Assembly (NCBI GenBank): GCA_032768795.1
Contig: CP136495.1
Location: 1,490,501-1,554,500 of the forward strand
Reading direction: 5' to 3'
Origin: Tremella fuciformis
Lineage: Eukaryota > Basidiomycota > Tremellomycetes > Tremellales > Tremellaceae
DNA length: 64,000 bases
Shown here: positions 2,403 through 28,028 of the stretch, one piece after another
Numbering within the stretch: position 1 is the stretch's first letter
Layout of the letters: every line of letters begins with the position of its first letter
Made by a program: the position numbers and the translations under genes
Notes under the pieces: model-generated
The model's input: only the letters and a program-made list of their open reading frames with translations
Database searches by the model: none
Told to the model about the DNA's origin: nothing

Positions 2403-4082
2403 ATGGTCGACGACGAGCTGGCCGGATTCAATGTTGAGCAGGGCATACAAGATGCCTACGATGAGGCGTACCTCGGTACGGCCTCGGCGGACGACTATCG
2501 AATTCAACTCCAGGCCGCTCGAGAGAACCTCGAGGCGCAGCCCGAAAATGCCATTTTCAAGTTTGAGGTCGACAAGCTGGTTGCTGCGGGGAAGGCGGCT
2601 TTACGTCGAGAAAGGGATAAATCCGTGAGTCGAATGCCAGTAGACGAACTTCGAGTTAAGCTGTTAGGGTTCCTCTCCCGTAAAGTCGACTCCTGCTCGT
2701 GCTGAGTCGGTATTCCCGCCTATTCAATCGCCTTTCAAGGCTCCCCTTGCTCCCATCGGTCGTCTCTCACCCAAGAAACACATCTTGGATCCCTCTCCTA
2801 TCTCTCGTCAACCACCCTTCGGCTCGAGCAGCATTCCCGAGACACCGGCTAGTCAAAAGGGTCATGCTCATCGCCCTTTGGGCTTCCCTAAGGCCGCATC
2901 TCCGCCTGCCAAAGTCGTGTCTTCGGCTACTGAGGTCGGTCTGAGCGACTTGTTCGGCTCGGCCCCCGACTCGAGCCCGGGTCAGCCGATCCCTACTCCT
3001 TCGCCGACCAAGGCAGGTCGAACTCCTAGTGGGGTGTTCCCGAGGGTTGAAGGCGAAGAGTTGGTGGTCAAGCGTCTGAATCGCGTGTATCGGTACCCGC
3101 TGAAAGAACCGGAGGTCGTTGGACACGACGACTCGAGGATCGAGTCCTTCTACTCGTGGATCGAGTCGTACATTTCGACTCGTACTGGCGACACCGCGGA
3201 TACCGGGTCGAACATCCTCGAAGCGCTCGACTCCGGCTCGTGGGGCGTCCTGATGGGGGCGGAGCGTTGTGCAGCCTGTGTGTCCCATAATCGCCCTCCC
3301 ATGTCGGGCTACTCGGGTCTACTCTGCGTCTGCCCGGTTGTGGAGGTCGATGGTAGGCGGTATGTGGCGCAGAAGTATGTTTTCGACTTACCGTACTCGA
3401 TTTTCGCTGACGTATAGGTGTCTTGGGTGTATGCTCAAGTCGAAACACTGCACCCTTTCGCCCAACACCGCTCTTGGGCCCCGAGCTCAACTCGTCCTCC
3501 CTGCCGACGAGGTCGTTCGTCGTAAGGGTGTTATCGCAGGGATTCACCGCCAGGCGGCAGCTCTACTTGCAGACGCGAAACCCGGTCTGGCCCGTAATGC
3601 TATCTTGGAGATCTATAGAATCAATTACTCCGAATATCAGGTAAGTGTAGTCGGATTTCGTCTTGGTCTTGTCGAGATCTGACTTGCAGCATTTGAACCG
3701 GACTGCATTCCGCGGCGAGTCTCAAGTCGCTCTGCTAGACTCGGGTGATCCTCCGTTGGTGTCTACACTCGACTGGAGCTCTTTGGACGACGCGATGGCC
3801 GAAGGCGCTGAGGAGGGGGTTGCGGGTCCCTCGGTGGTCGGTGGGGGTGGTTTGAAGCGGCTATTGGAGGACTCGCCCGCGCCCTCCATTCACTCGTCTC
3901 CCGACCGGCACCACTCGGTTACTCGACTTCTGTCTGCCCGAGCTGAGTCCCTCGAGTCGGAATCCGACATCCCGCACCGCACGACCCGACTGCAGACCAA
4001 GGAGAAGACTGCCAGTGAGGCGAAGGCGCCACAGCGCGCCGCGCTTGGCGCCCTCAAGACGAAGCGCGGCCGCCGCAAGTGA
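2403..4082 (+). CDS. Element A antisense accessory gene, cysteine-rich protein (4 exons, 509 aa)
   Basis: Encoded on the strand opposite to gag-pol, between the 3' LTR and the end of pol. Exons 2403-2624, 2668-3359, 3418-3640 and 3690-4082 join in frame through introns of 43, 58 and 49 nt with GTGAGT, GTATGT and GTAAGT donors. The start is the ATG at 2403. Residues from about 275 hold a cysteine cluster (CAAC ... CVC ... CLGC-x6-C); the rest is rich in S, P and charged residues, ending in a basic KTKRGRRK tail. It ends 32 bp from the pol stop, convergently. The comparable genes in elements B and C have a similar cysteine arrangement, although A aligns with them only around the cysteines. A zinc-binding or DNA-binding role is an inference; no function is established. 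Confidence 0.75.
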
Positions 4083-4114: not shown

Positions 4115-4994
4115 TCATGCCGACTCCGTTCTCCAGCGCGGGGCGCGCCTTATGCGTTTCGCATCGGATACTAGGGATTCGACTTGGCTGTCCTCGATGC
4201 CCTTCATCCACGACTCGAACCGCGGGTCCCCCTTTAGAGAGTCTGTTGGTTGCCAGGTCGGTTGTTGGTACCCCTTCCATTTCACAAGGACCTGGTCCTC
4301 GAGTTGTCTTGCCTTACCCCGGGATCGTCGAGCTCGTTTCAGTACCCCTTCGACTTCGTAAAGCTCCTCCTCGCTAGTGTGTGGGGCTGGTGGCGGAGCG
4401 ACCAGCGCGGGTTGCGCTTCGACTCGAGCCCCACGAACGTGCGACAAGAGCTCTACGTTGAAGACTGGGTGAACTCGATTGGCGACCAATTCCGGAGGCA
4501 GGTCCAGTTTATATGCGTTCTCGTTTATCCTTTCTAGTATGGAGTACGGTCCTACGTGACGGTGGTCGAATTTCCTAGTCGGACGGAGCGTGCGCAAGTT
4601 CTTGCCATTTAGCCAGACTTTGTCCCCTACTTGGAAGTCCGGTGTACGTCGACGCTTATCATATTGCTTCTTCCACCCTTCTTGGGCTCTGAGCAAGTTC
4701 CCTCGTATTCGATGGTGCAGCTGTTCTAGCTGCTGAACCCGGTCGGCGGCTGCTGGAACTTGCAGGTCGGACAGGTCTCCTGGCGGATCGACTAGGGTCG
4801 TACGATATGCTCTCCCGGTGTAGGCCTCCAGGGGACTCATACCCAGCGAGGCGTGGTGCGTGCTATTGTAGCAGAACTCCGCGTGCGGCAGTAGGGGCAC
4901 CCAATTGTCTTGTTCGAGGTTCACATAGTTGCGTAGGTACTGTTCCAGCCACTGGTTCGTTCTCTCGGTTTGTCCGTCTGTTTGTGGGTGGTAT
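4115..4994 (-). pseudogene. Element A pol, 3' part: integrase C-terminus and chromodomain
   Basis: Open frame from the B insertion point down to the stop at 4115. It begins with HPQTDGQTERTN, which holds the last catalytic acidic residue (E) of the integrase D,D-E triad. It continues through the GPY/F-like integrase C-terminal region (VGDKVWLNGKNL, KFDHRHVGPYSI) and ends in a chromodomain (YEVEGVLKRARR ... LVKWKGYQQPTWQP, roughly 4225-4365). The first D and second D of the triad are on the other side of element B, at about 29.4 and 29.2 kb, so this integrase cannot be made as one protein from this copy. Confidence 0.92.
4990..4994. repeat. Target-site duplication of element B, left copy (GGTAT)
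   Basis: GGTAT directly before the left LTR; repeated directly after the right LTR at 29118-29122. Confidence 0.95.
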
Positions 4995-5398
4995 TGTCAC
5001 GTCGGCCACGCCTCCATGATCACCAAAGCACGCCTACGAGCCTCGTTCCAGCCCAGCACGCCTGTCAAACACGTGAGCCTATCGTCGATCCTCGAGTAGC
5101 CTCGACGACGCTCGAGTAGCCTCGACGACTTTAGAGCTCGAGCCTCGTCGATGGTGTTTCAAGGAGAAAGCCCAAGGCGGTGCAGAGGAGGGCACGGGTG
5201 ATATATATACAAGTCCTCACCCGTAGACCGTCCTTAGCACCGTGGTATTGAGTCCCATGGATAGAAGGTAACGGCGCAGCCGTGTTGTCGACGCACGAGA
5301 GGCTGTAGGACACACCTTCTCGTGGAGGACAGAGACAGATCAACAGATAGCACGTGTGAGAGGGCCTATCAGTCGACGACCGGCCTGGCCCCGTGACA
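4995..5398 (+). repeat. Element B LTR, left
   Basis: 404 bp, TGTCAC...GTGACA. Contains a TATA-like run at 5201-5209 and, 35 bp on, the segment 5236-5248 that is the exact reverse complement of the primer-binding site. Also has two tandem copies of a 20-bp unit (CTCGAGTAGCCTCGACGACN) near 5093-5131. It appears identical to the middle LTR at 12480-12883. Confidence 0.95.
5201..5248 (+). promoter_or_regulatory. Element B promoter: TATA-like box and predicted RNA start
   Basis: ATATATATAC at 5201-5210, with AGCACCGTGGTAT starting 35 bp downstream at 5236. That 13-mer is complementary to the primer-binding site, and in self-priming elements this segment is the first bases of the RNA; the spacing from the TATA box fits that. 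Confidence 0.7.
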
Positions 5399-5400
5399 GT

Positions 5401-5413
5401 ATACCACGGTGCT
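5401..5413 (+). other. Element B primer-binding site (self-priming type)
   Basis: ATACCACGGTGCT, two bases after the LTR, is the exact reverse complement of LTR bases 5236-5248. This is the arrangement known from Tf1, where the 5' end of the RNA folds back to prime reverse transcription instead of a tRNA. Confidence 0.85.
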
Positions 5414-5436
5414 TCTACCTCTCACACGACTAGTTC

Positions 5437-6579
5437 ATGGCACCATCGACTCGACGAACCACGTCGACAGATCCTGAGCATCAGCACATTGCTCTACCCA
5501 CAAACCTACGACTACCGGTGGACACTCGACTGAGAGCCGCCGCGACCAACATGGCCCAACCATTGGGTGATCAGCCGTCTGTGCAGCAGTTGCTCGCGCA
5601 GATCGTGCAGCTTCAGGCGGCCCTCGTCGAGCAGCAGGCGCAGCAACGACAGGGCTCGCCAGGCGTTGGGAACCCGTCCGAGCCGAAGGCGAACCCGCCT
5701 GACACGTTTAACGGCAAGGACCCAGCCGCTTTGGAGCGGTTCATCATGCAGTGCGAGACGGTCTTCAAGCTGCAGCCGTCGAAGTTCTCTGGCGACACGC
5801 ACAAGGTCATGTATGTGATCTCGTTCCTCAGGGGATTCGTGCTCGACGCGATTCAGCCCTTGGCGACAGGGCGAGACAGCGATTTGAACGAGAACGGAGA
5901 GCATGTCGAGGCTGGCGACTACCTCGACGAGAAAATTCGGACTTACGCTGGGCTTCGTCGCTACCTGCGCGAGAACTTTGGGGATCCCGACGCGAAGGGG
6001 ACTGCTCGACGCAAGTACTTCTCGCTGCGGCAGACGGGATCGGCAGCCGAATACTTCGCCAAGATTCGGGAGTACACGTCAGTCCTCTCATGGGAGCTCG
6101 ACGAGCAAGCAACGGCTCGTGCCAAGGAAGGGCTCTCCGACGTGCTTCAGGACGAGGTGGCCAGGCACCCCAAAGAGTTCGAGACCTTTGCCGAGCTGCA
6201 GGCGTTTGTGGTCCGCCTCGACAACAGTCTGCGAGCAAGGGAGGCAGAGAAGAACAAGGCGGAGAACAGGCGAGAGAAGAAGAAGACTGTCCCGGGCGGC
6301 AACAACGGCGGATCTACAGCGGTTACGTCAGAGGTTGGAGCGGCGGCGACGAACCCCAGACCCTCACCTGGCCCGACAACCTCGTCGAGTCTCAACTCCG
6401 CTGCAGCCCCTCGACGAGTCTACCCTCCTCGCCCTAGGCTCACTCCGGACGAGCACGAGAGGCGAGGCAGCCAGGGCCTTTGCTTCAAGTGCGGAAACGC
6501 TGGGCATCTTGCGCGCGACTGCCCAGGCTCGTTCAACCCCGGCCAACGCGTGAAGCAGGAGCCGCAGGGGGAAGCCTGA
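5437..6579 (+). CDS. gag: Element B copy 1 Gag
   Basis: 380 aa, the structural protein of the virus-like particle. Starts at the ATG at 5437, 39 bp after the LTR. A capsid-like region (PDTFNGKDPAALERFI ... LRGFVLDAIQPL ... YFSLRQTGSAAEYFAKIREY) is typical of Ty3/Gypsy Gag. A CCHC zinc knuckle, CFKCGNAGHLARDC, lies at about residues 349-362. Pol overlaps the last 100 nt in the -1 frame. The only amino-acid difference from copy 2 noticed is P for L near residue 286. Confidence 0.95.
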   Translation: MAPSTRRTTSTDPEHQHIALPTNLRLPVDTRLRAAATNMAQPLGDQPSVQQLLAQIVQLQAALVEQQAQQRQGSPGVGNPSEPKANPPDTFNGKDPAALERFIMQCETVFKLQPSKFSGDTHKVMYVISFLRGFVLDAIQPLATGRDSDLNENGEHVEAGDYLDEKIRTYAGLRRYLRENFGDPDAKGTARRKYFSLRQTGSAAEYFAKIREYTSVLSWELDEQATARAKEGLSDVLQDEVARHPKEFETFAELQAFVVRLDNSLRAREAEKNKAENRREKKKTVPGGNNGGSTAVTSEVGAAATNPRPSPGPTTSSSLNSAAAPRRVYPPRPRLTPDEHERRGSQGLCFKCGNAGHLARDCPGSFNPGQRVKQEPQGEA

Positions 6580-9500
6580 GGGGTCCCGAGCTACAAGGAG
6601 AAACTCGAGGCCCCGCTCCATACACACTCTCCGCCCTCACGCCTCCTGAACAACCGACTTCACCTCTCAAATCCTCTAATCCGACGCCCACTCACCCACC
6701 GACGGGGTCCGCTTCCCTCGTCGAGGAAGATCAACATGAAGAAGAAGCAGAGGACCTGGAGTCCGAGAAGGAGTCTGTACAGAGTGCTAGTGATGCCGAG
6801 GAATGCATGAGCGGTGAGGCTTGCAGGCTGGGAAGGCATCAAGCTGTCGTAGCAGGAAAAGTGGACGGGACGGCCGCTTGCATACTGTTAGATACAGGCG
6901 CAGGCGGGACCTTCATTGATCAGGACTACGCCGAAGGCCAGGGCTTGACCCAACAGAAGTTGGAGCGACCCAGGAATGTCCTCCTGTTCGACGGCGAACC
7001 GTCATCCGCGGGCGAAATCACCCACGAAGTGGTGGCCCCGGTGGAGACGCTTGGGGAAACAAGTGAAGAACGGCTAGCGGTTACGCGGCTCGCAGGTGCA
7101 GACGTCGTGCTAGGGTACGACTGGATGCAAGAGAAGAGAGTAGTCATGGACATGGGAGCTATGGAAGTCACCCGTGGAGAAGAAAAGGTGGCCTCGTCGA
7201 CGGTCGTCGAGGCTGCTTCAAGTGATCTGGCCATTTTGGCTACCAGAGCAAGAAGAGAGAGAGGAAAACACGCGGGGCAGTCCCGTAGGAGCTCCCCGAA
7301 CCATATCCCCTTGCGGATCAATCGGTGGGAGCAGAACAGGCTCGCCGCAGAGCGGCTGCGAGGGACTGTCACCGACGAGCTCGAGGAAGTGGTGGGGCGT
7401 TTGGACGGGCATCTTGGGTTTGACGAGTACACTCTGTCAGAGGAGGAGTCCCAGGCGGTGCGAAGGATCGTTCCGGAGTACTACCATGAGTTCCTCGATG
7501 TGTTCCACCCTCGTCGACCCGCCGACACGCTTCCGCCGAGTAGAGAATACGACCTGCGGATCAGACTGAAGGAGGGCGCAGAACTACGGGTCGCACCGCT
7601 TTACCAACTGTCGCCGGATCAAATGAGAGCACTCAGGGAGCTCCTCGCCAAAGAGCAAGCAGCGGGCAAGATCAGGCCATCGAACGCGGCGTATGGGTCG
7701 CCGAGCTTTTTCGTCCCTAAGAAGGTTGCCGGCGAATGGCGAATGGTGGTCGATTACCGGAAGCTCAACGAGGCAACAGTGTCGGACGCGTACCCCTTGC
7801 CGTTGATTTCCCAAGTCACGGCTGATCTGGCGGAGTCAGAGTGGTACACCAAGTTCGACCTACCGGGAGCCTACCAGCTTCTTCGCATGGCGCCAGGACA
7901 CGAAGCCTATACCGCCTTTAGGACGCCTCTGGGGATGTTCGAGTCCCTGGTAGTGCGAGATGGCTTGAAGAACGCGCCAGCAGTCTTCCAGCACTTCCTC
8001 AACGAGGTGCTCAGAGAGTTTGTTGGGCGGGGAGTGGTGATCTACATCGACAACATTTTGGTCCACGCCAAGAGCCTCGACGAGCTTCGTTCCCTCACAA
8101 AGGCGGTACTCGAGGCGTTGCGGAAGGCGGGACTGTATGTGAAAGCGTCGAAATCCGAGTTCGAGAAGAGGAAGGTCGACTTTCTGGGCTTTGTCATCTC
8201 CCGAGAAGGCGTGGAAGCGAATCCGGAGTACGTGAAAGGCGTCGTCGACTTCCCAGCACCAAGCAACCTCCTCGAAGTACGCCGGTTCTTGGGTCTGGCA
8301 AACTATTACCGCCGCTTCGTACCCAACTTTGCCAAGGTAGCGCTCCCCCTAGTGTTGCTGACAAAGAAGGGAGTCCCGTTTGGTTGGGGAGACGCGCAGG
8401 CAAGAGCCTTCGAAGAGATCAAGAGGCGAATGAGCGAGCCCCCTGTATTAGCCCATTTCGACCCTGCATTCGAGACCATCGTGCAGACCGACGCTTCGCT
8501 CTACGGGTGGGGATTTGTGATATCACAGATTAACCCCTCGACGAGCCTCGAGCACCCGGTGGCCATAGAGTCTGGGTCGTTTTCGGGGGCAGAGTTGAAC
8601 TGGACGACTACAGAGAAGGAGTTCCTGGCGATAGTGATGGCGTTCAAGCGGAAGCGACATCTCCTTCTGCAAGTAAGCTGCACGGTCCTCACGGATCACC
8701 ACAACCTCAGCTATTGGATGGAGCCGAGGAAACTGAGTGGGCGGGTTGCGCGATGGGTCGACGCCCTGGCAGGATTCTCCTTCCGAATCGTGTATCGTCC
8801 CGGGCTCAAAGCGGCTTACCCAGACGCTCTGTCGAGGAGGCCCGACTACAAGCCTGATGGATTGGACCTGGAGGAGCAACGAGTGCAGGCCTTACCTGGG
8901 TTTGACCAAGAAAGCAAGGTCGAGACGTCGCTGGGGTACATGCTTCGGGCACTCATCGAGGAGCCTCGACGAGGCTCGTCGAGTCCAGATCCAGAGGCAA
9001 GAGAGGATCCGCAGACGGGTACTCGGAGCACCTGGGAGGAGGATGAGGAGTTCGAGCACGCTGGAGAAGAGTTGGAGAGGATCAAGAAGGAGGAGAACGG
9101 AGTGGTGATTGATGCGGCGGGATTCCCCAAGCTGTTTGGGTTGGTTCAAAGGATGGGCCTCGACGAGCCCACACGAGCCAAGGTAGAGCCTGGCGGGGCC
9201 CTGCGACTCAATGGGCGGCTATACCTCACTGGCAAGGGCGATGGGCGGCTCCGAGCCATAAGGGATCGACATGAGGGGATCCTAGCGGGACATCCGGGAA
9301 TCACCAAGATGTTGGAGTTGCTCAGAAGGGACGTCTGTTGGCTGGGGCTGCGGCGCGATGTTGAGGCCTACGTACAGGGTTGTGCCATCTGCCAGAGGAC
9401 AAAGACAAGCAGGCAGCGCCCTCATGGTCTCCTCCAGAGTCTCGAAGTCCCGGAAGGCCCGTGGCAAGCTATTTCCATGGACTTCATCGAGGAGCTCCCC

Positions 9501-10547
9501 GGCAGCCAGGGCTTCAACTCCATCCTCGTCGTGGTAGACCGCCTGACGAAGTGGGCTATCTTCGTGCCGACAACGACTCGCCTCACAACGGCGGGACTCG
9601 TCGACCTCATCATCGACAATGTCGTGGCGCAGCATGGGTTGCCAAGATCCATCGTATCTGATCGAGGGAGCAAGTTCACTAGTCGACTATGGGGAGCACT
9701 GTGTGGGGCCCTGGGGATCAAGATCAGCCTGTCGACAGCCTTCCATCCCCAAACCGACGGGCAGACGGAGCGAGTCAATCAGGTCCTCGAGCAGTACCTA
9801 CGGGTATTCTGCGATCACAGACAAGACAATTGGTCGAGTCTGCTGCAGAGAGCAGCCTTCGCCTATAACAATACCCAGCACTCGGCGATCAAGATGAGCC
9901 CGTTCGAGGCGAACTTTGGGTACTCGCCGCGATGGACTGATGACTTGAGAGAGAGCGCCGAGCGAGCGGAGATACCGTCGGTCAAGGAAAAGCTTGGGTC
10001 CCTCGACGGGGTGCACCGATCTTGCCAACAAGCCATACAGCAAGCCAATGAGCGGTACGCCAAGTATTACGATGCAAGGAGAAGGGATGCGCCAGTGTTG
10101 AAGGTGGATGATATGGTCATGCTGTCGATGGAGAACATCAAGACTCGTCGACCCTCGAAGAAGCTCGACATCAAATGGGGGGGACCATACAAAATCCTCG
10201 CTAAGACGGGTCCATCAACGTACAAGCTGGAGCTGCCGGCGACGATGAGGGTGAGCCCGGTCTTCAACGTCCTCCGTCTTAAGCCATACCACCCGCCGAG
10301 GATCCCTGGACAGACCTACGACCCTCCGCCACCAGTGGAGGTCGACGACGAGGGCCCTAGCTATGAGGTGAAGAACGTCGTCGACTCGAGGAAAAGGGGC
10401 AGAAAGGTGGAGTACCTCGTCGAGTGGGTGGGGTACGAAGGAACAGATGAGGAGACGACCTGGGAACCAGTGGAGAACATTACTGGTGCTCTCGAAAGCG
10501 TCGAGAGCTTCCACAAAAGGAACCCAGGGAAACCAAGAGGAATATAA
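6480..10547 (+). CDS. pol: Element B copy 1 Pol (protease, RT, RNase H, integrase, chromodomain) with YIDN active site
   Basis: Open frame of 1355 codons in the -1 frame relative to Gag, so Pol is probably made by frameshifting near the Gag end (the run AGGGGGAA at 6566-6573 is a weak candidate). Order: aspartic protease LLDTGAGG (about residue 135), reverse transcriptase with YIDN at 523-526 where YIDD is expected, RNase H (TDASLYGWG, about 669), HHCC zinc region (HEGILAGH...CAIC, about 930-975), integrase D, D and E in MDF, SDRGS and TDGQTERVN (about 1000-1100), and a chromodomain at the end (YEVKNVVDSR...YLVEWVGYEG). The Asp-to-Asn change at nt 8052-8054 removes a catalytic metal ligand, so the enzyme is predicted inactive. 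Confidence 0.95.
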   Translation: MLQVRKRWASCARLPRLVQPRPTREAGAAGGSLRGPELQGETRGPAPYTLSALTPPEQPTSPLKSSNPTPTHPPTGSASLVEEDQHEEEAEDLESEKESVQSASDAEECMSGEACRLGRHQAVVAGKVDGTAACILLDTGAGGTFIDQDYAEGQGLTQQKLERPRNVLLFDGEPSSAGEITHEVVAPVETLGETSEERLAVTRLAGADVVLGYDWMQEKRVVMDMGAMEVTRGEEKVASSTVVEAASSDLAILATRARRERGKHAGQSRRSSPNHIPLRINRWEQNRLAAERLRGTVTDELEEVVGRLDGHLGFDEYTLSEEESQAVRRIVPEYYHEFLDVFHPRRPADTLPPSREYDLRIRLKEGAELRVAPLYQLSPDQMRALRELLAKEQAAGKIRPSNAAYGSPSFFVPKKVAGEWRMVVDYRKLNEATVSDAYPLPLISQVTADLAESEWYTKFDLPGAYQLLRMAPGHEAYTAFRTPLGMFESLVVRDGLKNAPAVFQHFLNEVLREFVGRGVVIYIDNILVHAKSLDELRSLTKAVLEALRKAGLYVKASKSEFEKRKVDFLGFVISREGVEANPEYVKGVVDFPAPSNLLEVRRFLGLANYYRRFVPNFAKVALPLVLLTKKGVPFGWGDAQARAFEEIKRRMSEPPVLAHFDPAFETIVQTDASLYGWGFVISQINPSTSLEHPVAIESGSFSGAELNWTTTEKEFLAIVMAFKRKRHLLLQVSCTVLTDHHNLSYWMEPRKLSGRVARWVDALAGFSFRIVYRPGLKAAYPDALSRRPDYKPDGLDLEEQRVQALPGFDQESKVETSLGYMLRALIEEPRRGSSSPDPEAREDPQTGTRSTWEEDEEFEHAGEELERIKKEENGVVIDAAGFPKLFGLVQRMGLDEPTRAKVEPGGALRLNGRLYLTGKGDGRLRAIRDRHEGILAGHPGITKMLELLRRDVCWLGLRRDVEAYVQGCAICQRTKTSRQRPHGLLQSLEVPEGPWQAISMDFIEELPGSQGFNSILVVVDRLTKWAIFVPTTTRLTTAGLVDLIIDNVVAQHGLPRSIVSDRGSKFTSRLWGALCGALGIKISLSTAFHPQTDGQTERVNQVLEQYLRVFCDHRQDNWSSLLQRAAFAYNNTQHSAIKMSPFEANFGYSPRWTDDLRESAERAEIPSVKEKLGSLDGVHRSCQQAIQQANERYAKYYDARRRDAPVLKVDDMVMLSMENIKTRRPSKKLDIKWGGPYKILAKTGPSTYKLELPATMRVSPVFNVLRLKPYHPPRIPGQTYDPPPPVEVDDEGPSYEVKNVVDSRKRGRKVEYLVEWVGYEGTDEETTWEPVENITGALESVESFHKRNPGKPRGI

Positions 10548-12476: not shown

Positions 12477-12479
12477 ATG

Positions 12480-12883: not shown

Positions 12884-12885
12884 GT

Positions 12886-12898: not shown

Positions 12899-12921
12899 TC
12901 TACCTCTCACACGACTAGTTC

Positions 12922-18172: not shown

Positions 18173-21100
18173 TCACGACCCCGAACCACTCGCCTCCGCC
18201 ACGTCGTCGAACATGGGCCCGACCATCGCCCTAAGGTCCAGCCCCAGGAGCCTCGCGTGCCGCCTCGCCTCCTCGACGTGGTACGCCCTGTCCGCCGGGA
18301 TGGACTGGGCCAGCGTGACATGGTGCTGAAGGACACCGATGTCGAGCCTCGTCGAGGGAGTCCACGACAAGGGAGCTGGCGCGGATGGGCGGGCAGGAGT
18401 CGACACCGGAGGCGGCGTCGGAGGCGGCACGGGTTGACGAACCGACCGGCGAAGTCGGTCGGTGAAGGCGGCCGGGCCGACAACAGGCGTGGGGGCGGGA
18501 GTCGGCGAAGGCGGGTCGACATCCGCGAAGCTCACAGCCCGGCGAGCTCTGGGTGTCGAGGACGAGCTGGCGGGTCGTCGAGGAGTCGGGCTGGAGTTGA
18601 ACGAGCAACCTGAGGCTGTGCCACAGGTGTAGCACTTCAACTTCGGCCCGCCTCCATCTAGGACCCTACACGGCAAGTTGTCCGAACGACACCGCTGGCA
18701 TCGCTGGCGGCCGTTGAGCGTGCGGAGAGGTCGCCCTTTTGCCTGAGCCTGCAAGATCAGCGTGAGAGGCTGGAGAGTAGAAGACAACAACGCACCAGGG
18801 CCCATGGGAGGGTCCTATTCGATCCCCGGCCGAACGTCGGGTAGAATGGCCCTGGGAATGAGCGGGGACCTCAACAGATGGCGGACGTACCGAAAAAGGC
18901 GCGGTCCAGCGCATTCCTACACCGGACTCGAGGGCCAGCCTCGAGTCGCCTCGACGACGCCTCGCTTCCCTCCCCATCGGATCCTCCACTGCCCGCTTCG
19001 GATTCCCCAACGGATCCTTCGCTGCCCGCTTCGGATCCGTCTCCCGTCGAGATGCTCCCCTCCACGACGTCTTCTCCTACACCTGCGTTGTCCACGGCGG
19101 CCGGGAGAGCATCGGCTACCTCAGACACCCCAAGATACCGGGTTGAGGCTGAACGCAGGCGAGAGGAGTACATGCCGCCAACAGGCGACACGCGACGACG
19201 CTTTGGGGTTGGGGAGAGGGGAGGCGGTATCGTTGGCAGGGGAGTGTTGCCTGGGGAACCGGGCGACTCGACTCGACGCCGGCGGCGTGGGTTGATTGCC
19301 GGAGTCGGAGAGCGGGATGGCGGAGGCATAGAAGGCGGGGGAAGGAGAAGGATAGGCGAGCCGAGGGGGACGAGGGGATAGGGCGGTATGATGGGGGATC
19401 CGGTCCCACCACCAATGTAGGGGCGAAGAGGCCGAGGCGAGGGCGGCTCGAACGGCAAGGAGTGGGCTTCTCGATAGCGACTCTCGCCAGCGAAAGCCGC
19501 GTCGGAAGCCTGGGAAGACGGGGGCGAGGCGTCTGAGTAGCCGCTGGACGTAGAGGAGGTAGCACAGCTACTCTCCCTAGCGGCTCTGACGGTCCCCTGG
19601 TGCCGACGGATCTCGGCGTGTATGTCTGCTAGCGAGCGCAGAATCGCTGTACGCCCTGGGCATCAATACAAGCAGTAGGGTGGTGTCACGATGCTGCGCT
19701 CTCCCGTTGGCAGAGGCCCTCTCGCACAATATCAGAGTCAAGAATAAAGGATAAAGGGGTAGAAACGAGGATGTCGAGGTAGGATCCTCGTCGAGGTTGG
19801 ATCCTCGTCGAGGTTACAAGGTCGTCGAGGTAACAAGGTCGTCGAGGATACAGCGTGAGTGCGACTCAGCCACGCTGCGTGCCACGGAGAGAGTGAGATC
19901 GTCAATGGTGATCCATGAGACTCAATCAGAGAGTGCTGAAGAACTACGACGGGCGCCCGGGGCATCCTATATGACTCTGCGCCTGCTTCCCGCCGTCGCG
20001 CGTTCATTCAACGTCTACTCCCTCGTCGAGGTTCTCCAGCCCGAGGTAGGTCACGTGTCGCTCACGTGAGAGGTGTTGGTCACGTGCGTAGGTCGTCGAG
20101 GGCGTGGCCGTCGTGACACTCTGCCCACCTTTGAAGTCGAGCTCCTGCGAGACACGCGCTATCTCCATCCACTCCAGCCTTCATCCTCGTCCTCGTCCTC
20201 GTCCTCGTCGAGCACACCCGCATTGCCGATCCATGAGTCGAGATAGCAGTCGAATGACGTCGCTTGTAACGGGAGCGAAACTCTGGCGACAAGTCGTCGA
20301 GCGGTCGTCAAGGAAACGGTGAAAGGACTGCCAATCCGTCGTCGAGGTAGCCTCGTGTTGCTCGAGGGCGTCGCCATGTCGCGGGGTGCTCGAAAACGAC
20401 ATAAACAGAGGGGGGAGAGGGCGTCAGCGCTCTCATCCCCACCATCAACCTCAACTCACGCCTTATGCCCTGGCTACACCTCTCGAGACCAAGAACACTC
20501 GACGCATCCACCTTCACCACAAGCTCGCCCCCTCCATCTCCCTACATCCTCTTCGACAGCAGTTCTCTAGACAACGCGCTGTCCTATCCTTCTCCTACAA
20601 CCCCTACGGCAACTATAGACGAGGCATCTTCTGACTCAGACGGGTCAGTAACACTCTGCACAGAAACCGATTCTCGATTTGAGACTGTCAGTGTCGACTC
20701 GATGTCCAACCCATCCCCATCTCGTGCCGGCACCGCCCAACCCGAAGGCACCCCCTTCCCATCCCCCACGCAAGCCGCCTCGACTGCCGACATCCCAACA
20801 GTCGACGAGGCTGTTCCACTCCCCGCCGTCGGAGCCATCCCACCGCCCGACGAACAAGCTGCGGAGCTACTCAGCGATGCGCCTGCCGCGGCTGTCCCAC
20901 AGGAAGAGGGGGAGGAGGAGTTGGATGTAGAGGCTGATGTGGACGAGCTAGCGCCCGACACTCCGGCATCGTCGAGCTTGTCCGAGGAGGAGATTTCTCC
21001 TAGCCGGCGATTTGACCCACGAAATGCCTCCGAGGAGGCATACTATGTGAAGAAGGGATGGGGACTGCCGGTCCCGGAGTCAGAGCCATTGGACCGTTCG

Positions 21101-24100
21101 TTCTTTGGTAAGTAAAGTCTGCAAGTTTCGCCCAAACTGATCAGTAGGCTCCCACTACCCCGACCGAGGACAGCGGGGATACAACAGATCTCTGACATGG
21201 GCCCGGGTGAGTATTGTCAGCTACTTGGTATCCTCTGACATTCAGCAACAAGCGGGTTCACGGCCGATCCGGGTTCTAGAAGGGGATGAGCGATGTGAGG
21301 CGTGTGTCACCGACGACCTCCCGTGTCGCATCGTTGAGGAAGGCAAGAAAGTGAAGTGCCTAACGTGCGGCACCCTGGCCTGCTCGTTCGGCACGGTAAC
21401 TCCTGGCCCCTCGTCATCGGCACGGCGCCGTCAGGTGTCCTTCGCCCGCGGCACGTCTCCCTCGCCCGTCACGCCCGGCGCCCGACGCTCCGGCCGACTC
21501 GCTGCAGCCCGGTCCACGTCGACGACCTTGGCTGCTGGCCTCGCCAACATCGACCTAGCGGGCACGGTCAAGGCTTCTGGGAAGAAAGGGAAGGGAAAGG
21601 GAAGAGAGAAACGTCGGGCTCGCTCTTCGTCCTCGCCCATTTCGTCACCGTTGTCACACAAGAGGCTCCGCTCGGGGCATCCTACCTCGACGAGTAGGCT
21701 GAGCCCGCTCCCTCCCCCTGCTCCGGAACCGATGGATGACGCTGGCACGGGTTGGCTAGGGGATGGCGGACTCGATCCTGTACCTCAAGCCGGACCATCA
21801 AGGACTTCTCACTGGTCTCCACCCCCTCCCATGATGCAGCTACCGCCGCCAACACCACCACCACCCGCTCCAATGACCTCGACCTCTGCCCCAGACCGCC
21901 GGTGGCAAGAGTTATTTCAATTGAGTCACTTCGCTCGCCGAGAGACTCAAGCACCGATGCGTACCTACTTTATCTCACGGGCGCGAGACATCGCAGGTGA
22001 CTTGGGTGTTAACTTCGACGAGTTGACACTTGGGGAGTTTCTCGAGGGAACATCTTGACCGTAGCTTGTCTTGTCTCTTACTTCTTGCTTCTTGCTTTTG
22101 CCGTCTTGACTCTTGTATCTTGCCGCATGTATGTCTCTCACCGCTCACTGCTTCTCAGCCTATGCTCTGTCGCTGCTTCACTTAGGCCCTGGTTGCTGCT
22201 TGGCCTCCTGGTTTCTCCGGGTTCTCCTTGTGGAACTTCTCAATGCTCGCCCAGGCTCCATCAATGTTCCCTGCCGGTTCCCATGTCGTCGCCTCATCCG
22301 TTCCCTCATACCCGAGCCACTCCACCTTGTACTCCAATCGCCCTCTCCTTTTCCTCGAGTCGATGATCCTCTTCACCTCGAATGATTCCCCTTCCTCGTC
22401 GACTTCCACAGGCCCTGGCGGATCGTATGTTTGTCCTGGGAGCGTCGGTGGCTCGAATACCTTGAGTCGGTCCACCGAAAAGACTGGATTGACCTTCATT
22501 GTGTCGGGCAGCTCAAGCTTGTACGCGCTGCCCGCCTTTGCGATGATCCTGTAGGGTCCACACCATTTCAAGTCGAGCTTCTTCGAGGGTCGTCGAGTTT
22601 GTATGTTTTCCATCGACAGCATCACTTGGTCCCCTACCTTCATCTCGGGGGCCTCCTGATGCTTGGCATTATACCCTCTAGCGTATGCTTCATTGGCGAG
22701 CTCGATGTTCTTCTTGCACAACGCGTGCACCTCCTCGAGCGAAGCAAACTTCTCGACGACTGATGGGATCTCTCGAGCCTCTCCCTCGACGACGATGGAT
22801 TCTGCCCACCTTGGGGCGTAGCCGAAATTTGCTTCAAACGGCGTCATCATGATTGCCGAATGCATTGAGTTGTTGTACGCGAACGCCGCTCGCTGGAGGA
22901 GAGTAGCCCAGTTGTCCTGCTTGTAGTCGCAGAAGATCCTCAGGTATTGTTCGAGGGCTTGATTTGTCCTCTCTGTCTGCCCATCCGTCTGAGGGTGGAA
23001 GGCCGTCGAAAGGCTGACCTTGATGCCGAGGGTGCTGCACATTGCACCCCAAAGCTTGCTGGTGAACTTGCTTCCTCTATCCGAAATGATGCTCGTGGGT
23101 AGCCCATGCTGCGCTACCACATTGTCGAGGACAAGGTCGACCAAGCCTGCCGTGTTGAGCCGAGTTGTCGTAGGGATGAAGATAGCCCATTTGGTGAGCC
23201 GGTCGACGACGACAAGGATCGAGTTGAAGCCCGAGCTGGCGGGAAGCTCCTCGATGAAGTCCATGGATATCGAGGACCATGGCCTGTCAGCAATCTCCAG
23301 GCTGTGTAACAGTCCATGGGGACGCTGACGCACCGGTTTGCACCGCTGACACACTGCACACCCTCTCACATACTTCTCCACATCCCGTCTTAGTCCCAAC
23401 CAACAGTACTCCCTCCTAACCAGCTCCAGCATCTTCGCAACTCCAGGATGTCCAGCCAATTGCCCCTCGTGGTGATCCCGCATGACCTTTACTCTTGCCT
23501 GTTTGATGTCCGGGATGTAGAGTCGCCCGTTGATCCTGAGCAGGCCATCCTCGTCGAACTTGAACTTGCTTGCCTCGTCGAGGCCCAGTCTTTTTGCCAG
23601 TGACCATGCCCTTGGGTTCTCCTCCTTCGTAATCCTCTTCTCCCCTCTTAACTCCCCAAGCTCCTCCAATGTATCCTTCAAGTCCTCATCTCCGCCCTGC
23701 CCTTCCTTTAATTCTCCTCGAGACAATCCCCTCAATTCTCCTTCCTCGTCTTCTTCTCCTTCTTCGTCTTCTCCTCCTTCTTCGTCTTCTCCTCCTTCTT
23801 CGTCTTCTCCTCCTTCTTCGTCTTCCACCAGCGCTCGCAACATGTAGCCCAGACTGGACGTGGCCGTACTCTCCTTGTCGAAGCTTGGCAGGGCTTGGAC
23901 TAGCTCTGGTTCTGCGTCCTTGCCCTGTGGAATATAGTCGGCTCTCCTCGATAATGCATCCGGGTAGGCTGCCTTGGTTCCTGGTCGGTAGACGATCTTG
24001 TATGAGAAGCCAGCTAGGGTATCCACCCATCTCGCAACTCGAGGGCTGAGTTTCTGTGGCTCCATCCAGTATGTGAGGTTGAGATGGTCGGTCAAGATCG

Positions 24101-27100
24101 TCGAGGTAACCTGCAGAAGGAGATGCCGACGCCGCTTGAAGGCCATGACGATCGCGAGGAACTCTTTCTCCGTGGTGGTGTAGTTGAGCTCCGCTCCTGA
24201 GAAGGCACCCGACTCGACTGCAACAGGGTGTTCTTGTCCTGTCGAGGAGTTCACCTGCGAGATGATGAACCCCCATCCGTAGACCGAGGCGTCTGTCTGG
24301 ATGATAGTCTCGAACGTCGGGTTGAAGTGAGCGATCACTGGTGCTTCGCTCATTCGCCTCTTGATCTCCTCGAACGCCCACTGCTGTCCATCTCCCCAAT
24401 GGAAGTCGATATCCTTCCTTGTGAGGTGCGAGAGAGGCCCAGCGAGCTTGGAGAATTGCGGTACGAAGCGTCGGTAATAGCTCGCAAGACCGAGGAACCG
24501 TCGAGTTTCGTGTAGGTTTCGAGGGGTAGGGAAATTGCGAACACCCTCGACATACCCACTGTCAGCCTCGACGCCCTCGTGCGAGATGATGAAGCCCAAG
24601 AACTTCACCTTAGTCTGCTCGAACTCCGACTTAGACGCCTTCACAAACAGTCCAGCCTTCCGCAACGCCTCCAGCACCGCCTTAGTCAATCTCCTAAGTT
24701 CCTCGAGGTTCTCCGCATGGATGAGAATGTCGTCGATGTAGATGATGACCCCTTTTCCCAGGAATTCGTGCAGGACTTCGTTCAAGAAGTGTTGGAACAC
24801 GCTCGGCGCGTTCCGAAGTCCGTCTCGCACCACCAGTGACTCGAACATTCCTCGAGGGGTACGGAATGCTGTGAACTTCTCATGTCCAGGAGCCATCCGG
24901 AGCAGCTGGTATGCTCCCGGCAAGTCGAGCTTCGTGTAGTATCTCGACTTGGCTAGGTCGTCGGTCACTTGGGATATCAGGGGTAGCGGATACGCGTCTG
25001 GCACCGTCATCTCGTTGAGCTTGCGATAGTCGACAACCATTCTCAGTTCTCCTTGGGCCTTCTTTGGTACGAAGAAGCTTGGTGACCCATAGGGCGAGTT
25101 CGAGGGTCGAATCCTTCCAGCCTTTCTCTCTCGATCCAGCAACTTGTCGAGCGCATCCATCTGATCTGGGTTCAGGCTATACAGCGGGGCCACTCGTAGG
25201 TCGGCTCCAGGTTTAAGCGTGATGCGTAGGTCGTATTCTCTACTTGGAGCAAGCGTCTCTACCCCTCGTCGAGGATGGAAGACCTCGAGGTATTCGTGAT
25301 ATCGCTCCGGGACAAGATGTTGCACGGCTGCTTCCTCTTCTGGGCTGAGTTCGTACTCGTCATAGTCGGGTAGGACGTCGATATATGCCTCCTTCTCGCT
25401 CAACTCCTCGGTCACTGTGCCGCATAGCTCGACTGTATTTCCCTGGTTCTGCTCCCATCGGTTGAATGGGAGCTCAATGCTGTTCGCCTTCGATCGCCTG
25501 CTCCTTCGTCTACCTTGTCGCCTTTCCGCCTTGGTCTCCAATGTTCCTGATAGTCGAGAGACCTCGTCGAGGTTCTGTGGTCCGTTCTCCTGGTTCGTCT
25601 CTTTCCCGCCTGTCCTCTTCCTTGTCGCCTTCTTCCTTCCAGCATCCAATATCACACCGTTCTCCTTCATCCAGTCATATCCCAACACCACGTCCGCTCC
25701 TGCCAATGTTGTCACACCTAACTCTTCCTTTCCTTCACCGCCTAGGACTTTTACTGTTCCCGTCACTCCCTTTTCTACTTGTCCTGCTGAGCTTGGTTTG
25801 CCGTCAAAGAGGAGGAGTTGCCGGGGTCGAGGGAGTGGGTAACAGGGGATGTGATGCCGTTCAACGAACACAGAGTCGACGAAGTTACCAGTGGCCCCGG
25901 TGTCGAGCAGCACCTTCACCCCGTCGACTTGATTGACGCTTCCTGACACGACAGCCTGCTCTCTGCCTAAACAGCAAACCTCACCACGAATGCATGCCTC
26001 CTTATCACTAGCTATTCCGTCCGTGGCAACCAGTGCCTTCTCATCTTTCGCTTCTTCGTCGAGGTTCGGGATTAAAGGTGATTGTGATACAGGGGGGTTG
26101 GGAGGTGAATGGGGAGGGGAGGTGGCCGAGAGGATGTCTTGATGGGGCCGCTGGACCTCTCGTATGTTCTCAGCGTCCCTCAAGCTTTTGGGTCCTCCTG
26201 CTTGACGATAGGTCGGCCGGGTGCAGGGCTGCCTCGAGGAACGGGAGGTCGTTGCCCGGGAACACAGGCGTTGGCGAAATGACCGACTCCGCCGCATCGG
26301 AAACAGAGGCGCTGCTCGTTCCTCCTCTGACGTTCGGCAGGGTCGAGACCTCCAGGAGGCGTTGACCTGAAACCAGGCGGGCCACTAGGGGCTGGCGATG
26401 GACGCGTCGACGGGATCGGCGGGAGAGGTCGGTAGGTCGACGAGGCAGGGAGAGCAGCTTGCTGCTGGGTAGTCGGGGCTGGTCGTCGTCGAGCTTCTTC
26501 GTACCGCTTGACCTCTGCCTTCTTCTCAGCCTCCCTTGCTCTGAGCCTGTTGTCCAACTTGATGACATAGGACTGAAGCTCTCCGAAGGTCTCCAGCTCC
26601 ACTGTGGTCCGAGCAACCTCGTCTCGAAGATTGTCTGAGAGGCCCTCGAGCGCCCTAGCTCTAGCTTGCTCGTTGGCTTCCCATCCCAAGACCGCCAGGT
26701 ACTCCCTAAGCTTCGCGAAGTACTCTGCCGCTGATCCGGTCTGCTTCAAGTCGAAGTATCGCCTCTGAGCGGTCCCCTTGATGTCGGGGTCTCCGAAGTT
26801 GTCCCTCAAGTATTTCGACAGCCTCTGGAAGCTACTGATCTTCTCGTCGAGCTCGTCTCCCGACGCGAGAGGTTGGATAGCGTCCTGAACGAATCCTCTG
26901 AGAAAGGAGATGGCGTAAATGACCTTGGACTCCTCTGTGAACTTCGAAGGCTGTAGCCGAAAGACGATGTTACATTGCATGAGGAATCCTTCGAGTTTCT
27001 CCGGCTTTGAGCCATCGAAAGTGTCGGGCGGGTTGGCCTTTGGCTCGCTCGATGATGCGTTGGTCGAGGGAGCGGGGGAGTTGGCTCGTCGAGCCTCGAT

Positions 27101-28028
27101 GGCAACGAGCTGTTGCAGGATCTGAGCGAGGGAAGCCTGATCCGCCATGTTGTTGGGTGTGCTAGACCGGCTAGCAGGAGGAAGACGAAGGGACTGTGGT
27201 AAAGCTTGGTGCTCGTGGTTCGGGTTGAGTGATGTCGAACGTCGAGTCTCGATGGGCATATGCCCCGGGTGTGCGTGGTTGTGCGAAGAGGTAATAGCAC
27301 TCTCTGATACTGTCACGATGCTGCGCTCTCCCGTTGGCAGAGGCCCTCTCGCACAATATCAGAGTCAAGAATAAAGGATAAAGGGGTAGAAACGAGGATG
27401 TCGAGGTAGGATCCTCGTCGAGGTTGGATCCTCGTCGAGGTTACAAGGTCGTCGAGGTAACAAGGTCGTCGAGGATACAGCGTGAGTGCGACTCAGCCAC
27501 GCTGCGTGCCACGGAGAGAGTGAGATCGTCAATGGTGATCCATGAGACTCAATCAGAGAGTGCTGAAGAACTACGACGGGCGCCCGGGGCATCCTATATG
27601 ACTCTGCGCCTGCTTCCCGCCGTCGCGCGTTCATTCAACGTCTACTCCCTCGTCGAGGTTCTCCAGCCCGAGGTAGGTCACGTGTCGCTCACGTGAGAGG
27701 TGTTGGTCACGTGCGTAGGTCGTCGAGGGCGTGGCCGTCGTGACAGGTGGCTCAACAATCACTCACCGCTTGGCGCAGCACTGGCCGCATCCGACCAGTC
27801 GAGCTCATCGACGAGCTCGTCGATCTCCTCGACCGGTGTGGGCTCCGGAGTTCGAGGACGGACCGCCCATCGAGGGAACAGTCGAGGAGGGGGAGCGTCG
27901 ACAGCCGACTCGGGGGAGGATGGCGGCGTCGTGGGGCTGGGGGAAGGGGTTTTGGTCATCGTGACCAGGCGTAGAGGTCGTCCTCGGAGGACGATTTTGA
28001 GGGAGGGATCGGTGGCGTTGGAGAACAT
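18173..28028 (-). CDS. Element B copy 2 antisense accessory gene, split in intron 1 by element C
   Basis: Exon 1 is 28028-27767; exons 2-4 are 19655-18891, 18851-18796 and 18748-18173. Sequence and splice sites match copy 1, with at least two residue differences (PPSPRP for PASPRP, PAINP for PPINP). Element C (19684-27745) lies inside intron 1, turning a 44-nt intron into one of about 8.1 kb. The donor and acceptor remain, but splicing over an element with its own LTR signals is doubtful, so the gene may be non-functional here. The cysteine cluster C-x2-C-x6-C-x11-C-x2-C-x5-C is intact. Confidence 0.75.
19679..19683. repeat. Target-site duplication of element C, left copy (GGTGG)
   Basis: GGTGG before the left LTR and again at 27746-27750 after the right LTR. 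The empty site is visible in element B copy 1 (around 12191-12200), where the matching stretch reads GGTGA. Confidence 0.95.
19684..20118 (-). repeat. Element C 3' LTR
   Basis: 435 bp, TGTCACG...CGTGACA. Matches 27311-27745 without a difference noticed. Contains doubled short units (ATCCTCGTCGAGGTT twice, ACAAGGTCGTCGAGG twice) at about 19788-19853. Confidence 0.95.
20119..20132 (-). other. Element C polypurine tract
   Basis: Minus strand AAAGGTGGGCAGAG directly next to the 3' LTR. Confidence 0.75.
20133..20464 (+). other. Possible leader or first exon of the element C antisense gene
   Basis: No gene resolved. In element B the equivalent antisense gene has an extra first exon; a matching exon was looked for here and not found with confidence. 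Contains a short CTCGTC repeat near 20184-20209. Confidence 0.4.
20465..22058 (+). CDS. Element C antisense accessory gene, cysteine-rich protein (3 exons, about 504 aa)
   Basis: Opposite to gag-pol. Exons 20465-21107, 21148-21206 and 21246-22058 join in frame through 40- and 39-nt introns. The ATG at 20465 is provisional, as an upstream exon is possible. The first exon is S/P/E-rich and ends ...DRSFFG; the second encodes GSHYPDRGQRGYNRSLTWAR. The third starts with RPIRVLEGDERCEAC and a cysteine cluster C-x2-C-x6-C-x10-C-x2-C-x4-C (from about residue 251), followed by basic and proline-rich stretches and an EFLEGTS end. The element B protein aligns with it over all these landmarks (…FFG / YP..G..NR.L.WA / RPLR.L.G..RC..C), which shows shared ancestry. 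It stops 124 bp from the pol stop, convergently. Confidence 0.78.
22182..26297 (-). CDS. pol: Element C Pol (protease, RT, RNase H, integrase, chromodomain)
   Basis: 1371-codon open frame in the -1 frame relative to Gag. Domains in order: protease VLLDTGATGNF (about residue 130), reverse transcriptase with intact YIDD (about 520), RNase H TDASVYGWG (about 667), an acidic linker made of DEEGGE repeats (about 823-850), integrase HHCC (HHEGQLAGH ... CAVCQRCK), catalytic D, D and E in MDF, SDRGS and TDGQTERTN, and a C-terminal chromodomain (FEVKRIIDSRK ... VEWLGYEGTDE). About 60-70% like element B Pol by eye, so C is a related but separate family. Confidence 0.95.
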   Translation of the reverse strand: MRRSRSFRQRLCSRATTSRSSRQPCTRPTYRQAGGPKSLRDAENIREVQRPHQDILSATSPPHSPPNPPVSQSPLIPNLDEEAKDEKALVATDGIASDKEACIRGEVCCLGREQAVVSGSVNQVDGVKVLLDTGATGNFVDSVFVERHHIPCYPLPRPRQLLLFDGKPSSAGQVEKGVTGTVKVLGGEGKEELGVTTLAGADVVLGYDWMKENGVILDAGRKKATRKRTGGKETNQENGPQNLDEVSRLSGTLETKAERRQGRRRSRRSKANSIELPFNRWEQNQGNTVELCGTVTEELSEKEAYIDVLPDYDEYELSPEEEAAVQHLVPERYHEYLEVFHPRRGVETLAPSREYDLRITLKPGADLRVAPLYSLNPDQMDALDKLLDRERKAGRIRPSNSPYGSPSFFVPKKAQGELRMVVDYRKLNEMTVPDAYPLPLISQVTDDLAKSRYYTKLDLPGAYQLLRMAPGHEKFTAFRTPRGMFESLVVRDGLRNAPSVFQHFLNEVLHEFLGKGVIIYIDDILIHAENLEELRRLTKAVLEALRKAGLFVKASKSEFEQTKVKFLGFIISHEGVEADSGYVEGVRNFPTPRNLHETRRFLGLASYYRRFVPQFSKLAGPLSHLTRKDIDFHWGDGQQWAFEEIKRRMSEAPVIAHFNPTFETIIQTDASVYGWGFIISQVNSSTGQEHPVAVESGAFSGAELNYTTTEKEFLAIVMAFKRRRHLLLQVTSTILTDHLNLTYWMEPQKLSPRVARWVDTLAGFSYKIVYRPGTKAAYPDALSRRADYIPQGKDAEPELVQALPSFDKESTATSSLGYMLRALVEDEEGGEDEEGGEDEEGGEDEEGEEDEEGELRGLSRGELKEGQGGDEDLKDTLEELGELRGEKRITKEENPRAWSLAKRLGLDEASKFKFDEDGLLRINGRLYIPDIKQARVKVMRDHHEGQLAGHPGVAKMLELVRREYCWLGLRRDVEKYVRGCAVCQRCKPVRQRPHGLLHSLEIADRPWSSISMDFIEELPASSGFNSILVVVDRLTKWAIFIPTTTRLNTAGLVDLVLDNVVAQHGLPTSIISDRGSKFTSKLWGAMCSTLGIKVSLSTAFHPQTDGQTERTNQALEQYLRIFCDYKQDNWATLLQRAAFAYNNSMHSAIMMTPFEANFGYAPRWAESIVVEGEAREIPSVVEKFASLEEVHALCKKNIELANEAYARGYNAKHQEAPEMKVGDQVMLSMENIQTRRPSKKLDLKWCGPYRIIAKAGSAYKLELPDTMKVNPVFSVDRLKVFEPPTLPGQTYDPPGPVEVDEEGESFEVKRIIDSRKRRGRLEYKVEWLGYEGTDEATTWEPAGNIDGAWASIEKFHKENPEKPGGQAATRA
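23745..23830 (-). repeat. 18-bp tandem repeat inside element C pol, coding DEEGGE
   Basis: Several near-perfect 18-bp units (TCTTCTCCTCCTTCTTCG on plus) in the linker between RNase H and integrase. The repeat keeps the frame and gives a strongly acidic run. The matching place in element B Pol holds a non-repetitive acidic stretch. Confidence 0.9.
26180..27259 (-). CDS. gag: Element C Gag
   Basis: 359 aa from the ATG at 27259 (MPIETRRSTSLN...). The open frame extends upstream into the primer-binding site but without another ATG. Capsid-like region (PDTFDGSKPEKLEGFL ... LRGFVQDAIQPL ... GSAAEYFAKLREYLAV) and a CFRCGGVGHFANAC zinc knuckle at about residue 319. The frame ends GAC CCA AAA GCT TGA; CCCAAAA there is a standard -1 slippery heptamer and Pol is in the -1 frame. 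Confidence 0.95.
   Translation of the reverse strand: MPIETRRSTSLNPNHEHQALPQSLRLPPASRSSTPNNMADQASLAQILQQLVAIEARRANSPAPSTNASSSEPKANPPDTFDGSKPEKLEGFLMQCNIVFRLQPSKFTEESKVIYAISFLRGFVQDAIQPLASGDELDEKISSFQRLSKYLRDNFGDPDIKGTAQRRYFDLKQTGSAAEYFAKLREYLAVLGWEANEQARARALEGLSDNLRDEVARTTVELETFGELQSYVIKLDNRLRAREAEKKAEVKRYEEARRRPAPTTQQQAALPASSTYRPLPPIPSTRPSPAPSGPPGFRSTPPGGLDPAERQRRNEQRLCFRCGGVGHFANACVPGQRPPVPRGSPAPGRPIVKQEDPKA
26186..26192 (-). promoter_or_regulatory. Candidate -1 ribosomal frameshift site of element C (CCCAAAA)
   Basis: C CCA AAA in the Gag frame fits X XXY YYZ exactly, lies two codons before the Gag stop and inside the overlap with Pol. A downstream structure was not assessed. Confidence 0.65.
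27296..27308 (-). other. Element C primer-binding site (self-priming type)
   Basis: Minus strand ATCAGAGAGTGCT, two bases inside the 5' LTR boundary, is the reverse complement of LTR bases 27552-27564 (minus AGCACTCTCTGAT). A TATAG box lies about 33 bp upstream of that LTR segment (near 27594-27599). Confidence 0.85.
27311..27745 (-). repeat. Element C 5' LTR
   Basis: 435 bp; same sequence as 19684-20118 by eye. Carries the minus-strand TATA-like box and predicted RNA start. Confidence 0.95.

Follow-up and report, generated by a model that had tools for sequence, protein, structure and literature searches.

Intron-bearing antisense genes for zinc-cluster-like proteins in Ty3 retrotransposon families of Tremella fuciformis

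How can an element that is copied through RNA carry an intron-bearing gene, and what might such a gene do for it? The question is raised by 64,000 nucleotides of Tremella fuciformis contig CP136495.1 (assembly GCA_032768795.1, positions 1,490,501-1,554,500, forward strand; hereafter the window), the left half of which is a nest of long terminal repeat (LTR) retrotransposons designated A, B (two copies, B1 and B2) and C. As an initial annotation of this DNA had proposed, A, B and C each carry a multi-exon gene opposite the gag-pol strand, between the pol stop and the 3' LTR; gene models confirm this layout, with products of 509, 552 and 504 amino acids against the 500-550 expected. The antisense orientation explains the presence of introns, which survive reverse transcription because they are not spliced out of the genomic RNA. 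The three genes are:

2403-4082, plus strand: antisense gene of A; exons 2403-2624, 2668-3359, 3418-3640 and 3690-4082; introns 2625-2667, 3360-3417 and 3641-3689; 509 amino acids, cysteine cluster at residues 275-316
12476-10688, minus strand: antisense gene of B1; exons 12476-12215, 12170-11406, 11366-11311 and 11263-10688; introns 12214-12171, 11405-11367 and 11310-11264; 552 amino acids, cysteine cluster at residues 378-409
20465-22058, plus strand: antisense gene of C; exons 20465-21107, 21148-21206 and 21246-22058; introns 21108-21147 and 21207-21245; 504 amino acids, cysteine cluster at residues 251-280

With four exons in A and B and three in C, all eight introns are GT-AG and 39-58 bases long, and the antisense gene ends 32 (A), 140 (B) or 123 (C) bases from the pol stop. 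All three genes thus have the arrangement that defines an aORF-3R, an open reading frame antisense to gag-pol between pol and the 3' LTR; its further marks, presence in most copies of a family and conservation like that of other element proteins, are found for the A and C copies. Looked for across the host genome (28.1 Mb, 11 contigs), the frame turns up in related elements and is multicopy: searches with one exon returned 17 strong matches for A, none with a stop, and 23 C-type matches, 22 of them without a stop, and led to 30 fetched B-type loci. The antisense exon lies on the 3' side of 21 of the 23 C pol matches and of 14 of the 17 A pol matches, one of the three A misses being the window's own A, with its pol split by the B insertion; for B and for the families F, G and K described below, presence per family is read from copy lists only.

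Purifying selection acts on the antisense frame in most divergent copies of A, B and C, since its ratio of nonsynonymous to synonymous change (dN/dS) is well below 1 in divergent copies of all three families. In a set of 37 loci (L060 was not alignable; L009 and L041 are the window's own copies), the ratio is 0.04-0.17 in eight A copies, of which the three divergent ones, L052-L054, have 0.14-0.16; 0.06-0.15 in the C copies L005-L008 and L061, each with at least 14 changes, with the relic L057 at 0.23; and, for B, 0.17-0.23 in six divergent copies (L028, L030, L034, L035, L038 and L058), several of which are broken. For four C copies also scored for the antisense gene, pol gave 0.06-0.09, placing selection on the C antisense gene close to that on pol; the pol rows of L001 and L004, taken from the wrong strand, were left out. 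Wherever the copies cover a splice site it is GT-AG, except for one donor in L054, for which the alignment offers an in-frame GT three bases upstream, and the frame-shift count of 1 in C copies probably reflects the truncated end of the retrieved sequence. Of six copies examined, five have all the cluster cysteines and the other, a relic, is short of one; over the 90-125 codons surrounding the cluster, dN/dS in these six is 0.03-0.23. The suggestion that conserved splice sites and cysteines signal selection therefore held when dN/dS was compared across copies, the divergent ones departing from neutrality. Weighing on the other side are the B copies L029 and L032, at 0.36 and 0.42, and near-identical B copies with values of about 1 or above on 5-30 changes (L024 1.03, L025 0.97, L031 1.73, L033 1.16), for which dN/dS is uninformative.

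Chance open frames were rejected on dN/dS and on the conservation of frame and introns among copies; in all three families frame and splice sites are kept, and the genes are more than chance. A sense-strand gene was likewise rejected: over the three genes, no start-codon frame listed for that strand is longer than 177 amino acids, and that strand is therefore not open along the gene. Other reading frames mostly give dN/dS above 1, except the opposite-strand frame with coinciding wobble positions, which also has a low dN/dS in the largest exon. Among the 17 comparisons that had over 10 changes, its value was higher than that of the annotated frame in 14, equal in one (L008) and lower in two (L028, L029).

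The carriers are Ty3 LTR retrotransposons, all with reverse transcriptase (RT), RNase H and integrase in a Pol/Gag domain search. Element A, on the minus strand, has two plus-strand B elements inserted in its pol; B1 (4995-12884) and B2 (12480-29118) stand in tandem with the middle LTR common to both; and the minus-strand element C, whose two 435-bp LTRs are identical, is inserted within the B2 antisense gene. The B gene modelled above is that of B1; its annotated copy, in B2, is interrupted. B and C have the chromovirus order RT-RNase H-integrase-chromodomain; A has the same order spread over two pieces, its chromodomain, in the small pol piece, scoring 22.0 bits against a Pfam cut-off of 25.1, while that of B and C is clear. 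B and C are 64% identical in Pol and A is 35-40% identical to each of them, so by Pol sequence the three form two lineages, one comprising the two sister families B and C; the description of them as different families by Pol was right for the distant A and too strong for B and C. The remaining parts of the nest, with domain searches as the basis for pol of A, B1 and C and for gag of B1 and C, are:

1871-2184, minus strand: 3' LTR repeat of A, 99.7% identical to the 5' copy at 33105-33418
4115-4924, minus strand: C-terminal part of A pol (SH3; chromodomain under the Pfam cut-off)
29059-31785, minus strand: protease-RT-RNase H-integrase part of A pol, its final bases being B LTR
4995-5399, plus strand: B LTR, with more copies at 12480-12884 and 28714-29118
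5437-6579, plus strand: B1 gag
6480-10547, plus strand: B1 pol
13965-18032, plus strand: B2 pol
19684-20118, minus strand: 3' LTR of C, 100% identical to the 5' LTR at 27311-27745
22182-26297, minus strand: C pol
26180-27316, minus strand: C gag

Matches to RVT_1 indicate many further Ty3 families in the genome (150 of 339 candidates scored), and the 3' region was fetched from one copy each of ten further families or subfamilies. The gene recurs in six Ty3 families (A, B, C, F, G and K), F, G and K having an antisense cysteine gene after the pol stop, with the position of the 3' LTR not located. In K (L069, 319-1675, minus strand) the gene is readable as seven exons encoding 369 amino acids, with five GT-AG introns and a last one that is GC-AG (donor GCAAGT); a model restricted to GT-AG introns was rejected, its frame being open only with the GC-AG intron. 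The last K exon carries C-x2-C-x6-C-x8-C-x2-C-x3-C and has 22 copies, 21 of them free of stops. In F the cluster is interrupted by an intron, and 7 of 19 copies have an in-frame stop; family M shares the F region (97%). G (L065, G000:C5:991500-995500; 578-2400) has two separate antisense cysteine-cluster genes, each in two copies, which recur together in the second copy (C2:2160598, C2:2161660), and a relative of one of them (43-44%) occurs at three more places. In D, paired LTR matches place the LTR 12 bases past the pol stop, a junction also present in the sampled copies of E, I and J; with the LTR directly after the pol stop, the sampled copies of all four leave no space for the gene. H (L066, 1165-1845) and L (L070, 875-1572) each have, about equally far past pol, a sequence that resembles the B LTR but runs in the opposite orientation. 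With A, C, F, G and K pooled, at least 69 of 86 antisense exons have an opposite-strand RT match upstream within 6.5 kb; three have a same-strand RT only, and 14 have none among the matches listed, the RT list being incomplete. A dispersed repeat is common to the flanks of different families (L065 3148-3371 and L068 3778-4001, 98% identity).

The products are characterised by a cysteine cluster, spaced C-x2-C-x6-C-x10/11-C-x2-C-x4/5-C in B and C. The initial description of a shared, near-Zn2Cys6 pattern stands for these two; A has seven cysteines spaced otherwise, C-x2-C-x15-C-x1-C-x9-C-x2-C-x6-C. B and C share the cysteine exon and, as had been noted, the one preceding it (BLASTP E 3e-25, 51% over 109 columns), and since they are sisters this sharing is common descent. 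In the form first claimed, sharing across different families is not supported: the A likeness is weak outside the cysteines, with E 1e-4 against the C protein (weak) and 0.13 against B (not significant). When clusters were shuffled with cysteines fixed, the real score against a B/C/K profile was reached by 6 of 500 shuffles for A, 5 for G2, 35 for G1 and 174 for F, and the real K score against a B/C profile by 3 of 500; because so few shuffles reach the real scores, the likeness of A, G2 and K to B and C probably goes beyond the cysteines. Common ancestry of the F cluster with that of B and C is unsupported by these scores.

By cluster sequence and predicted structure, the cysteine region resembles fungal Zn2Cys6 clusters and would be a divergent member of that type. 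Under the Zn2Cys6 spacing rule, B, C, F, G1 and K match proteins of PF00172 in having C-x2-C-x6-C as the first half, A, F and G in having it as the second, and the K model in the helices after its cluster. The antisense clusters depart from those proteins in the second half, shorter in B, C and K (x3-x5), in the first half of A and G2, and in the middle, longer in F and G1; wherever tested, they are under the family cut-off or unmatched. The spliced F cluster falls just under the PF00172 cut-off of 21 (20.8 bits, E 4e-4), cluster pieces of K, G1, G2, A and C have no PF00172 match, and the A, B and C proteins match no Pfam family. In the predicted K model the cluster is followed by two long helices, and helices also follow it in the predicted B model. 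All five Foldseek matches of the K model (PUT3, Pho7, PPR1, 1cld (LAC9) and HAP1; E 2.7-9.9, none significant) are presumably Zn2Cys6 proteins, the match titles naming Zn2Cys6 for PPR1 only. The top PDB match of a seven-cluster profile is the ethanol-regulon factor 1f4s, which we take to be the zinc-cluster protein AlcR (E 0.05, not significant). A match of profile A1 to a designed repeat protein was set aside as low-complexity sequence. Protein searches with A, C and K exons found no relatives beyond this genome, and NCBIfam gave none, a negative of little weight in libraries of unclear fungal coverage.

Start regions bear on how these genes might be expressed. The relevant parts are:

18173-19683, minus strand: pol-proximal part of the B2 antisense gene, severed by the C insertion
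27746-28031, minus strand: first-exon part of the B2 antisense gene, beyond the C insertion
28032-28713, minus strand: stretch from the B antisense ATG to the 3' LTR, with TATA-like box TATAAACC; absent in B1
20119-20464, plus strand: region from the C LTR to the antisense ATG, with TATA-like box CATAAACA

The box TATAAACC lies 65 bases from the end of the examined region at the B antisense ATG, and CATAAACA 68 bases from the corresponding end in C; for the long form of B, C and G2 together the distance is 57-68 bases, and the same pattern search found no box in the start regions of A, F, G1 and K. From the start of the gene to the 3' LTR, 682 bp are missing in B1, whose internal region abuts the LTR; B2 keeps these bases (28032-28713), which include the B box. 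As 25 of the 30 fetched B-type loci, and L059, extend into part of this stretch, B1 is the odd one. An own promoter is plausible, on these sequences, for some of the antisense genes.

We put at roughly one half the probability that the antisense gene encodes a nuclear, DNA-binding regulator of its own element. The accessory gene would be transcribed opposite gag-pol from near the 3' LTR, ending convergently with pol, and its mRNA would be spliced, as the conserved introns suggest. The protein, mostly a low-complexity chain with a putative divergent Zn2Cys6-type cluster and, in the K and B models, helices after it, would enter the nucleus and bind the DNA of its own element, presumably with zinc, and binding may then raise or tune element expression by transactivation or anti-silencing, target and direction both being conjectural. 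Were the proteins zinc-cluster DNA binders, retrotransposons would encode their own transcription regulators.

Other roles can be set against this one. An action later than transcription, bringing the preintegration complex into the nucleus or choosing the integration site, has a parallel in the retrotransposition or nuclear-import role proposed for antisense proteins of plant elements (PMC7264820) and would suit elements nested in one another, as in the window; it appears unlikely, as the Pol of B and C already has a chromodomain and D, E, I and J, in several copies each, manage without the gene. We also hold it improbable that the protein is a self-limiting repressor that controls copy number by lowering 5' LTR transcription: HBZ of human T-lymphotropic virus type 1 (HTLV-1), antisense, spliced and nuclear, down-regulates the 5' LTR (PMC10186651), and copy numbers are moderate (17 strong A exon matches, 23 C-type, 22 K), but self-repression needs selection within a lineage of selfish elements, and the sign of regulation is itself conjecture.

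Very improbable is a role for the antisense transcript itself, as double-stranded RNA with the open frame secondary; convergent genes could yield overlapping RNA, and such roles are discussed for other elements (PMC7264820), but a function of RNA alone predicts no codon bias, and divergent copies have dN/dS far below 1 and keep introns and cysteines. That the gene was captured from the host and is carried as a passenger strikes us as quite improbable. Introns and zinc-cluster likeness are usual in host genes, a PF00172 search of the genome lists 151 matches, and weak matches apart from the known copies could be host relatives (among them C8:746845 and C7:1824342 in the B/C-type search; C11:80908, C11:257043 and C10:753294 for K; C3:10125 and C9:761239 for G). 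Strong matches, however, mostly stand beside an opposite-strand RT, in the proportion given above, and constraint on the antisense gene is close to that on pol.

A more specific form of the regulator reading draws on short words, which are enriched differently by family: TCGACGA in B and C, ACTCGA/AGTCGA in A and, within the available parts only, CTTCGCC/CTTCGAC in G and ACGAATA in K, with no strong enriched word in F. In B and C (window 4995-12884 and 19684-27745) the enrichment of TCGACGA exceeds codon usage and amino-acid sequence. B gag-pol contains it 21 times where synonymous-codon shuffles give 3.8 (z 9.4; across 300 shuffles no word goes above z 5.2), and C gag-pol 17 times where they give 5.2 (z 6.0; shuffle 95th percentile 4.6, highest 6.4). 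The top word of A pol is barely over the 95th percentile (4.6 versus 4.4) and is not among A's enriched words, and D has no word above that percentile and no TCGACGA in 3.9 kb. TCGACGA is densest in LTRs, with 12-14 occurrences per kb, compared with 0.3 in window 34001-64000. The palindrome CCTCGWCGAGG, which contains it, has 1656 genome sites, compared with 33 for a reversed control; among the first 100 listed, 80 fall in clusters with arrays spaced by 16-32 bases, 14 in B copies, three have the C LTR spacing and three are single. The one array cluster read (G000:C1:1069150-1073939; L073) has a Ty1/copia pol inside, with about 4.8 kb between its CCTCGWCGAGG end arrays. Either the antisense protein or a host factor used by several elements could recognise the word.

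VANDAL elements are DNA transposons. Their VANC proteins in Arabidopsis (PMC5735166) suggest a counterpart in which an antisense zinc-cluster protein would read family-specific words across its own element and activate or un-silence it, the copia family being a hitch-hiker on the same regulator. VANC is likewise encoded by an intron-containing gene of the element, in which short family-specific words are enriched; its words are mainly non-coding and its binding has been shown (PMC5735166), whereas the fungal words occur in coding parts too and their binding is guessed. We regard this extension as improbable. Several observations tell against it: the 4.8 kb between the arrays of the copia family probably leaves no space for the gene, an arrangement that suits a host factor equally; in A pol and the three antisense frames no word is clearly above codon shuffles; part of K's word sits at intron ends; and J and I, which lack the gene, also have enriched words in short 3' stretches.

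Elsewhere in the window, the minus strand at 35700-58600 has several open frames with a common W-H-R-x-Q-R-x-W-P-like motif, which look like a tandem gene family; eight frames from this part had no Pfam match at E 0.01.

Several T. fuciformis families carry antisense genes in many near-identical copies beside related families without them, a natural comparison available in an organism of manageable genome size. An antisense gene of this kind, brtn, was reportedly described in the Boty element of Botrytis cinerea by Zhao et al. 2011. Boty is also a fungal LTR element with an extra antisense gene between pol and the 3' LTR, likened here by its description in PMC7264820 and PMC8365987, the latter citing the brtn paper by title. 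The antisense open reading frames of plants, maize Grande gene23, rice RIRE2 and Silene Retand ORF4/TRP28 (PMC7264820, PMC11963269), offer a nuclear protein with its own promoter in Grande and, in TRP28, predicted DNA binders present in 97% of Retand clusters (PMC11963269); they belong to another kingdom and element lineage and have TRP28 and SMC-like domains instead of a cysteine cluster, and the Retand paper nowhere uses the word intron. HTLV-1 HBZ (PMC10186651) is a spliced antisense gene near the 3' LTR encoding a nuclear regulator, unlike the fungal genes in being a bZIP factor with its promoter within the 3' LTR, and no kinship is claimed. Grande gene23, Retand TRP28 and HBZ would thus be precedents, by analogy, for antisense nuclear or DNA-binding proteins. 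Gypsy elements with an additional open reading frame of unknown function are also on record (PMC2864245), and the review PMC7264820 gives no established function for antisense accessory genes of LTR retrotransposons. At the level of titles and the starts of abstracts, with few subscription journals covered, no fungal antisense zinc-cluster gene in retrotransposons was found. The layout is already known; as far as these searches show, what looks new is the type of protein, its introns and how widely it occurs in a single fungus, and the fungal genes are an intron-rich, zinc-cluster-like variant of the known antisense layout.
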